Shown piece by piece: positions 6,891 to 18,900 of a stretch of 39,042 nucleotides of DNA. The number at the start of each line of letters is the position of its first letter. The first letter of the stretch is position 1. The notes under the pieces are model-generated. The model was not told the DNA's origin. It saw nothing but the letters and a program-made list of their open reading frames with translations, and searched no databases. The DNA lies in the NCBI GenBank assembly GCA_025210965.1, contig JAOAQY010000002.1:1-39042 (forward strand). The letters run 5' to 3'. A program made the translations under genes and the position numbers. Origin of the DNA: Tissierellales bacterium. Its GTDB lineage: Bacteria > Bacillota > Clostridia > Tissierellales > JAOAQY01.

Positions 6891-6918
6891 TTGGAAAAAT
6901 TGATAGATGTGATATAAT
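6891..6918 (+). promoter_or_regulatory. Promoter of the queuosine salvage operon
   Basis: TTGGAA, a 16-base spacer, TATAAT, with an extended TGA before the -10 box. It places the transcript start near 6925 and gives a leader of about 250 bases before the first gene. Confidence 0.6.
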
Positions 6919-6982
6919 AATTGTGTCTTGTCAATTACGAGACAATAAAAGTTAAAATCCATAAAGCTGCCTTCTGGCAGGA

Positions 6983-7017
6983 CTGGTTCGAGAACTCCCA
7001 GGATAAAAAACTAAGGA
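6983..7017 (+). promoter_or_regulatory. preQ1-I riboswitch aptamer
   Basis: The stem CTGG (6983-6986) / CCAG (6998-7001) closes a loop starting TTCGAGAAC with a C-rich 3' side. An A-rich tail follows, ending ACTAAGGA (7010-7017). The tail ATAAAAAACTAAGGA and the GGTTC...CCC loop pattern match the preQ1-I class, for example the B. subtilis queC leader. A small hairpin CTGCC/GGCAG (6967-6980) sits immediately 5' and is not part of the known aptamer. The downstream genes are queuosine-salvage genes, which supports the call. PreQ1 binding pairs the loop cytosines with the AAGG tail (family knowledge) and so removes that tail from other pairings. Confidence 0.9.
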
Positions 7018-7079
7018 TTTTTACCTCATCGAAGCGATTTTTTTGCGACGGTTTTTTTGAAGTACTCAAAATTAAAGGT

Positions 7080-7108
7080 AAGTTATGTCCTTAGACATGG
7101 CTTTTTTT
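7080..7108 (+). terminator. Riboswitch-controlled terminator (expression platform)
   Basis: A 10-bp stem (7080-7089 with 7094-7103, two G-T pairs), loop CTTA, then a seven-T run, 68 bases before the queK start. The segment TCCTTAG (7088-7094), spanning the end of the left arm, the loop and the first right-arm base, is an exact complement of the aptamer tail CTAAGGA (7011-7017). GGTAA (7077-7081) also complements TTACC (7021-7025). The antiterminator and the aptamer pseudoknot therefore exclude each other, predicting OFF when preQ1 is bound. Confidence 0.85.
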
Positions 7109-7176
7109 ATTGCTTTTGTTAAGCATATAAAGGGCATGTCAGTTCTCATAATATTATGAGAAAAGGAGAAGTGATT

Positions 7177-8142
7177 ATGAAAGGAAGAAAGGTGATTGTC
7201 GATTGCGATCCAGGAATCGATGATGTATTGGCACTATTATTACTACTTAGATCCCCAGAAATGGATGTACAAGGGATTACAATAGTTGGTGGTAATGTTC
7301 CAGTTGAATTAGGTGCGAAAAATGCACAAAAAGCATTAGAAATGAGTGGTAGGGAGGATATACCAGTATATCTAGGCGATAATAAACCACTCAAAAGGGA
7401 TTTAGTAACAGCTCAAGAAACTCATGGACAAGATGGTCTTGGTGAGAATTTCTTTGAAGTTGAATTAAAGTCTGTAAAAGAAAAATCTGCAGTTGAATTT
7501 CTAGTTGAAAAATTTTCTTCAGAAGAGGAAGTAGAACTCATAGCATTAGGTCCACTTACAAATATTGCTAAGAGTATTGCTCAAAAGCCAAAATTATATG
7601 AAAAATTAAATCGTTTAGTTACTATGGGTGGAAGTTTTAAAAGTCATGGTAATTGTTCACCAGTTGCAGAGTACAATTATTGGGTTGATCCACAGGCGGC
7701 AAATTTCGTTTACAAAAATATCAAATGCCCTATACACATGGTTGGATTAGATGTTACAAGAGAGATAGTACTTACTCCTGATTTGAGAGAGTGGCTAAAT
7801 CAAATTGATACATCACTTTCAAGATTTGTATATGATATTACACAATTTTATGTTGATTTTCATTGGGAATGGGAAAAAATATTGGGGTGTGTAATAAACG
7901 ACCCTCTAGCAGTTGCATATGCTATAAATAGTGATTTTTGTAGTGGGATTGAGCGATTTGTAGAAATTGTTGAGGATGGCCCGGCTATGGGACAGAGTAT
8001 TGTTGATGTTGAACATTTTTATAAGAAAGAGTCAAATGCTAAAGTGCTTACCAATGTTGATTCTAAGGCATTTATGAAGTTCTTTATGGAAAGATTGTTT
8101 CCAAATGAAATTGAGTCTTTAAAACATTTGGAGGTGATTTAG
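7177..8142 (+). CDS. queK: Queuosine nucleosidase (nucleoside hydrolase family), QueK-like
   Basis: A 321-residue inosine/uridine-preferring nucleoside hydrolase family protein. The Ca2+/ribose motif DCDPGIDD (9-16) has the diagnostic DxDxxxDD pattern; the LIALGPLTNIA and VTMGGSF motifs of the fold follow. The general family splits ribonucleosides into base and ribose. The preQ1 riboswitch upstream and the queuine lyase gene downstream say the substrate is queuosine, as in the C. difficile salvage pathway. I chose ATG at 7177 because AAGGAG (7163-7168) lies 8 bases before it; an in-frame ATG at 7156 has no site. The stop codon abuts the next start, so the genes are translationally coupled. 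Confidence 0.88.
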   Translation: MKGRKVIVDCDPGIDDVLALLLLLRSPEMDVQGITIVGGNVPVELGAKNAQKALEMSGREDIPVYLGDNKPLKRDLVTAQETHGQDGLGENFFEVELKSVKEKSAVEFLVEKFSSEEEVELIALGPLTNIAKSIAQKPKLYEKLNRLVTMGGSFKSHGNCSPVAEYNYWVDPQAANFVYKNIKCPIHMVGLDVTREIVLTPDLREWLNQIDTSLSRFVYDITQFYVDFHWEWEKILGCVINDPLAVAYAINSDFCSGIERFVEIVEDGPAMGQSIVDVEHFYKKESNAKVLTNVDSKAFMKFFMERLFPNEIESLKHLEVI

Positions 8143-8700
8143 ATGAGACAAAATAATGTATTGAAATTAACATTGGTTGGAATGGGAATTGCGCTTAATA
8201 TGATGGGTGCATTTATAGCATTGAATCTTAGATTGCCTATATATTTAGATTCTATTGGAACACTGATGGTAGCGTTTTTATTAGGTCCTATTTATGGTGT
8301 GGCTACAGGGCTTTGTGGGAGTGTTATAAGTGGTGTAACATTTGATATATTCTCATTGTATTTTGCTCCGGTGCAAATATTCACAGGATTTTTAGGAGGA
8401 TATTTGTATAAAAAAGATTGGCTTAAAGGCTGGAAGATACCATTTGGAACATTCTTTATGACTATTTTTGTTTCATTTATTGGGGCAGTTATAGCGGCAT
8501 ATCTATTTGGAGGAGTGACATCTTCTGGATCATCGTATATAGTAGCCTTTTTATCAAATATTGGAGTAAACAAAGTGGTTAGTGTATTTATTGTTCAATT
8601 TTTGACAGATTATTTAGATAAACTAGTAGCTGTAATCCTAGTATCTACTGCTATAGTTACTTTACCAAGGAGTATGGCTCAAAGAATAGAGGGAGCATAA
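8143..8700 (+). CDS. ECF transporter S component, probably for queuine/queuosine
   Basis: A 185-residue membrane protein with 5-6 helices, in the size range of ECF substrate-binding S components. The pattern LRLPIYLDSIGTLMVAFLLG followed by PIYGVATGLCGSVISG is typical of S components, where helix 1-2 loops form the binding site. S components capture a vitamin-like substrate and use the shared EcfAA'T energising module encoded elsewhere. Its start immediately follows the queK stop, with GGAGGTGA inside the end of queK. The operon indicates a queuosine-family substrate; QueT and QrtT are the S-component families known for this role, but I cannot say which this is. Confidence 0.82.
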   Translation: MRQNNVLKLTLVGMGIALNMMGAFIALNLRLPIYLDSIGTLMVAFLLGPIYGVATGLCGSVISGVTFDIFSLYFAPVQIFTGFLGGYLYKKDWLKGWKIPFGTFFMTIFVSFIGAVIAAYLFGGVTSSGSSYIVAFLSNIGVNKVVSVFIVQFLTDYLDKLVAVILVSTAIVTLPRSMAQRIEGA

Positions 8701-9389
8701 TGGACAGATATAGTAAAATAATAGATAAAACAAAGAGAGAAATAGTTCTTTTGAAAGGGTTTCCTTGCATTTGGGGCAAATGTTCTTTTTGTGATTATAT
8801 AGATGATAATTCTACGGATAAAGATGAGATGATTAAAATCAATCACGAGGTATTAAGTAACATAACTGGTGAGTTTGGAATACTTGAAGTAATTAATTCG
8901 GGAAGTTGCTTTGAACTACCTAAAGAAACACTCGAAGAAATAAAAGAGATAGTTGAAAGTAAGGGTATTGAAAGGCTCTTTTTTGAAAGCCATTGGTGCT
9001 ATAGAAATAAGGTAGAAGAGATGAGAGATTATTTTGATATTCCTATTACGTTTAAAATTGGAGTAGAAAGTTTTGATTATGGTTTTAGAAATGACTTTTT
9101 GAATAAAAATGCCAAATTTAAAACAGTGGAAGAACTTAAAGAATACTTTGATTCACCTTGTCTTATGGTTGGAATAAAGGGACAAACTAAAGAAATGATA
9201 GATTTAGATATGAAGATTTTGACAGAAAATTTTGATCATGGAACTATAAATATTTATATTGAAAATACTACTCCTCTCAAAAGGGATGACGATTTGGTAA
9301 GGTGGTTTTTAGATAAGTATAAACATCTTATAGACCACCCATCATATGATTTGCTAGTTCAAAACACTGATTTTGGAGTAGGGGACTGA
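8700..9389 (+). CDS. queL: Radical SAM queuine lyase, QueL-like
   Basis: A 229-residue protein whose N-terminus carries a cysteine triad CX4CX2C (Cys23, Cys28, Cys31: CIWGKCSFC), fitting the radical-SAM 4Fe-4S site with one extra residue compared with the usual CX3CX2C. The rest fits a short partial TIM barrel, including a SGSCFELP segment and IKIGVESFD-like strand. In C. difficile a small radical SAM enzyme in the same operon type converts queuine to preQ1, which then re-enters tRNA through Tgt. The start ATG overlaps the upstream TAA (TAATG), with GAGGGAG just before. It ends the operon. Confidence 0.87.
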   Translation: MDRYSKIIDKTKREIVLLKGFPCIWGKCSFCDYIDDNSTDKDEMIKINHEVLSNITGEFGILEVINSGSCFELPKETLEEIKEIVESKGIERLFFESHWCYRNKVEEMRDYFDIPITFKIGVESFDYGFRNDFLNKNAKFKTVEELKEYFDSPCLMVGIKGQTKEMIDLDMKILTENFDHGTINIYIENTTPLKRDDDLVRWFLDKYKHLIDHPSYDLLVQNTDFGVGD

Positions 9390-9397
9390 TAATAAAG

Positions 9398-9450
9398 AAT
9401 GTAGCGATTTTACAATAAATGAAAACTATTGTAAAATCGCTACATTTTTA
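9398..9450. terminator. Strong bidirectional terminator
   Basis: A perfect 20-bp stem (9398-9417 with 9427-9446) and a 9-base loop, followed by a T-rich tail on the plus strand. On the minus strand a less regular TTCTTTATTATC follows. It separates queL from the convergent MATE gene. Confidence 0.92.
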
Positions 9451-17994: not shown

Positions 17995-18098
17995 ATCAGA
18001 CAGAGTAGGTGAAGTGCGTTAAGTGTTAAAGGATGGGAGGTTGCCTTTAAACGAAAATGTAATGCATTGCGATGCTTTACCGCTGCCGCTGGACTGAT
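17995..18098 (+). promoter_or_regulatory. Tetrahydrofolate (THF, folT-type) riboswitch
   Basis: The closing stem ATCAG (17995-17999) / CTGAT (18094-18098) surrounds the conserved elements of the THF riboswitch: GAGTAGG, GCGTTAAGTG (18016-18025), GGATGGGA, ACGAA, and a 3' segment ACCGCTGCCGCTGGACT. The match to the Streptococcus folT leader is clear, and the gene that follows is folT. No strong U-tailed terminator follows, only a weak AAAAG/CTTTT hairpin at about 18102-18115. Control may therefore be at translation, through the GGAGG at 18164-18168. Confidence 0.88.
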
Positions 18099-18174
18099 TA
18101 AAAAGAATTCTTTTCTTTTTAGATAGCTAGTCTATGTACTTGTCATGTCTAACTAAAGAGAAAGGAGGGAGGCT

Positions 18175-18900
18175 ATGGATTTTGGAGCTAAAAGAAATCC
18201 GGTTAAAACAATGGTTAGTCTAGCACTTTTTATTGCGCTTAGCGTTGTGTTAACTAGATATCTTTCTATTGCAACTCCGACGCTTAGAATTGGATTTGGT
18301 TCGATTCCAGTAATGTTATCAGGTATGTTTTTTGGACCATTAGCTGGAGCGATAACAGGAGCAGTTGCAGATTTGATTGGATACATGCTTAACCCCATGG
18401 GGGGAAGCTATTTTCCAGGATTTACTATTAGTGCAGCAATCAGAGGCGCATTGTTTGGATTTGTATTTATGACTATGAAGAGCAAGGGGCGCAAAGTGAA
18501 TTTTAATATCGTAAGTGCTGTGGTAGTTAGTATGCTGGCGGTAGGTATCGTTTTGGTATCAAATAGATCGCAAGAGATGAATTTTAATAGTTGGCCACTT
18601 GTAGCTAAGGGATTTTTTGCATTAACTACAGTTGCCTTTATGATTATTCCAGTTTTTATTTCAAAGTATTGGAATAAATCAACATTTGAATTAGAATACA
18701 GCTTGGAAAAAGTTCTATTTGCCATGACGCTGACGTATATCTTAGTTTCTATTGGGCTTAATACTCTTTGGCTTTCTATGCTTATAGGAAAGTCGTTTAT
18801 AGTGTTATTACCTAGTAGAGTGATTACGGGATTGTTTGTTGTGCCAATTCATGCTGTGATAATCTACGCATTATCTAATAGTATGAAAAAAATCATGTAA
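18175..18900 (+). CDS. folT: Folate ECF transporter S component
   Basis: A 241-residue membrane protein with about six helices. The stretch LRIGFGSIPVMLSGMFFGPL (41-60), then AGAITGAVADLIGYMLNP, then GGSYFPGFTISAAIRG, is the FolT signature. FolT captures folates and works with the EcfAA'T module, which is not in this window. The THF riboswitch directly before it fits feedback control of folate uptake. The protein is longer than the usual ~170-190 residues because of an extended hydrophilic and helical stretch (about 95-160) between core helices. AGGAGGGAGG precedes the ATG. Confidence 0.93.
   Translation: MDFGAKRNPVKTMVSLALFIALSVVLTRYLSIATPTLRIGFGSIPVMLSGMFFGPLAGAITGAVADLIGYMLNPMGGSYFPGFTISAAIRGALFGFVFMTMKSKGRKVNFNIVSAVVVSMLAVGIVLVSNRSQEMNFNSWPLVAKGFFALTTVAFMIIPVFISKYWNKSTFELEYSLEKVLFAMTLTYILVSIGLNTLWLSMLIGKSFIVLLPSRVITGLFVVPIHAVIIYALSNSMKKIM

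Follow-up and report, generated by a model that had tools for sequence, protein, structure and literature searches.

According to one account (PMC11477304, citing Yuan et al. 2019 PNAS), C. difficile has a published operon in which a riboswitch precedes queK, qrtT and queL. In the pathway as outlined there and in a second source (PMC11130926), preQ1, queuine or queuosine is taken up by way of the S component, QueK converts queuosine to queuine, QueL converts queuine to preQ1, and TGT uses the preQ1. In the window, by which we mean the whole stretch of 39,042 nucleotides of Tissierellales DNA that was analyzed, we observed three tightly joined plus-strand genes, encoding QueK, an ECF S component and QueL, that lie behind a preQ1-I aptamer and are followed by a probable terminator. 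We conclude, at a probability of roughly 0.95, that these genes form a salvage operon for queuosine and queuine that is repressed by preQ1 and is of the C. difficile type, queK-qrtT-queL, the substrates, the activities and the direction of switching being those predicted from sequence.

A preliminary description of this DNA had predicted that the organism recovers preQ1 from queuosine or queuine, an interpretation that is supported by the kinship of QueL, QueK and the S component and by the presence of tgt in the genome. Nothing in the parts or the layout is new, as the operon already described for C. difficile is found here in a diverged relative. With this locus, a known pathway of micronutrient salvage is seen in a further clostridial lineage; no concept is changed.

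Gene order and comparison with C. difficile

The riboswitch, hydrolase, S component and radical SAM protein named in the preliminary description were all present where it had placed them, and the genes are joined by abutment and overlap as it had described. The hydrolase gene, queK (7177-8142, plus strand), encodes 321 amino acids from the ATG at 7177; on account of the AAGGAG located 8 nt before it, we prefer this start to that of the longer open reading frame at 7156. The queK stop codon (8140-8142) abuts the ATG at 8143 of the S-component gene, qrtT (8143-8700, plus strand), whose own stop codon (8698-8700) shares one base with the ATG of queL at 8700 (8700-9389, plus strand). Downstream, a 20-pair stem with T tracts (9399-9445), identified by a terminator scan and folding, is probably a terminator common to queL and a convergent MATE gene. 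Four terminators were seen, this one and the riboswitch terminator at 7080-7103 among them, compared to 1.0 expected from shuffled sequences. Upstream, a consensus scan placed a probable sigma-70 promoter, TTGGAA-N16-TATAAT with an extended TG (10 of 12 matches), at 6891-6918 on the plus strand, in a region where such matches were no commoner than chance (17 compared to 14.9 in shuffles).

We scanned 84,980 bacterial and archaeal species genomes for queL and obtained at least 80 queL loci. The order queK, S component, queL was present in at least 50 of the 80 loci listed, some of which are broken by contig ends, and at least 10 further loci of those listed had the S component followed by queL. 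The two C. difficile loci in this set had the same order, with hydrolase, S component and lyase about 57, 55-57 and 66% identical to the window proteins. The arrangement in the window, described earlier as the C. difficile set in a compact three-gene operon, is thus identical to the C. difficile order and not a variant of it. Compared to C. difficile CD1682-1684, the window operon shares the preQ1-I riboswitch, the gene order and all three protein families; it differs in that protein identity is only 55-66%, the leader between the aptamer and queK is longer, and the neighbors are others, with tRNA-Thr and topB upstream and the convergent MATE gene downstream.

The preQ1-I aptamer and its expression platform

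A preQ1-I aptamer had been reported ahead of the operon, and cmscan identified it at 6977-7020 on the plus strand as a match to Rfam PreQ1 (RF00522) that covered the full model (positions 1-45 of 45; E = 1.1e-5 for the window) and scored 43.3 bits, a margin of only 4 bits over the gathering threshold of 39. Among the loci scanned, 12, including two from C. difficile, had the same aptamer 5' of queK at or above the gathering score; the operons preceded by it include those of C. difficile, Romboutsia, Terrisporobacter, several Clostridium species and others.

The 3' tail of the aptamer, CTAAGGA (7011-7017, plus strand), is the complement of TCCTTAG (7088-7094), a sequence within the stem-loop of a predicted intrinsic terminator at 7080-7103 on the plus strand, found by the terminator scan and by folding. 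The segment 7010-7110 folds with the pairing between tail and terminator at -22.9 kcal/mol, and the terminator hairpin alone (7070-7115) at -12.2 kcal/mol. When the downstream stretch was shuffled, a 7-nt complement of the tail turned up in 0.5% of the shuffles; the C. difficile leader is arranged likewise, with 6 nt of complementarity. This layout makes transcriptional shut-off by preQ1 the likely mode of regulation. When preQ1 is plentiful, the aptamer would fold and occupy its 3' tail, CUA(AGGA), so that the terminator could form and transcription would stop; when preQ1 is absent, the tail would pair with UCCUUAG in the terminator, letting transcription continue.

An exact-match search found complementarity of at least 6 nt between tail and terminator at 15 of 43 aptamer sites, and by this simple test the remaining sites, many with a CTAGG tail, had none. 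The switching mechanism is consequently supported for the window and C. difficile, its generality beyond these two not being established.

QueL, QueK and the S component

The QueL protein aligned end to end with PDB 6P78, which was deposited as a queuine lyase, over 229 of 229 residues and without gaps (phmmer, E = 2.3e-86); the two share the cysteine motif and differ in sequence divergence only. The radical SAM motif C-x4-C-x2-C is formed by Cys23, Cys28 and Cys31, and these cysteines are conserved in 81 QueL sequences together with many further residues. Although the generic Pfam Radical_SAM score (24.2) was under its cut-off, the match to 6P78 is unambiguous. The protein belongs with QueL (6P78), as had been proposed, and is 66% identical to C. 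difficile QueL; as a radical SAM lyase it would cut queuine to yield preQ1.

The hydrolase matched PF01156 at 305 bits and carries the motif DCDPGIDD, in agreement with the DxDxxxDD signature reported for it. Membership in this Pfam family is shared with the Rih enzymes, and the best NCBIfam scores of the protein were those of the RihC and RihA models, as would be expected if it were a general ribonucleoside hydrolase of the RihA/B/C kind and the operon served general nucleoside salvage. However, those scores were far below the curated cut-offs (227.6 compared to 382, and 220.6 compared to 433), and identity was 57% to C. difficile QueK and 48-58% to queL-linked hydrolases but only 32-34% to a Terrisporobacter paralog and the E. 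coli enzymes RihA and RihB. Its gene is also tied to queL and a preQ1 riboswitch within a single operon. On the strength of the scores, the identities and the operon context, we rejected the Rih-type assignment, which we consider highly improbable.

In a phylogenetic tree, RihA, RihB and the Terrisporobacter paralog (L103) were split from the queL-linked hydrolases with 100/99 support; we used only this split because a distant paralog (L104) disturbs the tree via long branches. The window protein grouped with the queL-linked QueK proteins, as the preliminary description had anticipated, on a rather long branch (0.94) whose place inside the QueK set is without firm support. The window protein has the general catalytic residues in common with RihA and RihB and, in addition, residues such as I14, C160, S161, W169 and R195 that are conserved in the queL-linked set and absent from RihA and RihB. 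As a QueK, the protein is predicted to hydrolyze queuosine to queuine. The hydrolase (7156-8142 when counted from the longer reading frame) was the sole member of PF01156 that the genome yielded, and for this reason it may also have a minor part in the salvage of nucleosides in general. It is unlikely that in this lineage the substrate range of the diverged QueK or S component has shifted, for example to direct use of queuosine monophosphates, or that QueK doubles as the cell's only general nucleoside hydrolase.

The S component, which the earlier description had recognized as an ECF protein, matched PF12822 at 36.8 bits (cut-off 30.7). This was its sole match in the Pfam search, which returned none to the QueT family (PF06177). 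The protein was 55% identical over 183 amino acids to its counterpart in the C. difficile operon (55-57% across comparisons). Both proteins scored similarly with the CD3073 model NF045596, the window protein at 89.6 bits and the C. difficile protein at 86.6 bits, under the curated cut-off of 180. These comparisons assign the S component to the QrtT/CD1683 type and not to the QueT family. The two S components of C. difficile differ in substrate range, and because that range is not readable from sequence, the substrates named here for the window protein are predictions.

The operon's S component also scored weakly against TIGR04518, a family of folate S components (21.6 bits, cut-off 60), and a transporter for folate or another vitamin could have come to lie in the operon by chance. 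Against this stand its 55% identity to its counterpart from C. difficile, the retention of an S component between queK and queL in at least 50 of the 80 queL loci listed, and the presence elsewhere in the window of a distinct S component of the folate type, preceded by a THF riboswitch. With these three observations the reading as a folate transporter was rejected, and we regard it as barely plausible. At that other locus (17999-18900), the THF riboswitch precedes an ECF S component of the folate family, which makes it a second S component under riboswitch control in the window.

Genome complement and other queL loci

The genome assembly comprises 3.60 Mb in 243 contigs and is 95.8% complete. 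The preliminary description had noted that no tgt gene was in view, which is accurate for the window and not for the genome: tgt is present on another contig (C73), adjacent to queA, and queH is on contig C145. In this genome, queG, queD and queF gave no match to their models and queC gave only sub-threshold matches (22.8 bits, cut-off 150.3). With no real match to queC, queD or queF, the genome looks salvage-only for queuosine, the absences not being absolute because the assembly is fragmented and 95.8% complete.

On contig C35 we identified an ECF module, ecfA-ecfT-truA-rplM, in which ecfA, truA and rplM were named by reading the translations. The operon S component would work with a shared ECF module encoded elsewhere to import preQ1, queuine or queuosine; TGT would then insert preQ1 into tRNA, and QueA and QueH would complete queuosine. 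The bacterium is thereby predicted to depend on queuosine precursors taken from its surroundings or released by turnover of its own tRNA. A second S component, of the CD3073 type (209.5 bits, cut-off 180), is encoded on contig C121 (G000; L096 1480-1944) by a gene that runs off the contig end, and no preQ1 riboswitch was found near it in the stretch scanned up to that end. In its gene content the genome resembles that of C. difficile, which is salvage-only and also has a second, CD3073-type S component, making two of the QrtT type.

Several loci, among them L066 (6001-7177), L073, L074 and L077, have a second type of queL operon, in which a PF06177 S component comes directly after queL and queK is lacking. 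They resemble the window operon in coupling queL to an ECF S component; they differ from it in having no adjacent queK, an S component of another family (QueT) and an S gene that follows queL. Upstream of queL, three loci that were checked, which come from different genera, have a divergent minus-strand gene for a PTS_EIIC_2 (PF13303) membrane protein (L001, 4206-5339; L016, 4552-5619; L020, 3106-4173). A gene of the same size, probably also PTS_EIIC_2, lies upstream of queL on the minus strand in a fourth (L007, 3934-5001).
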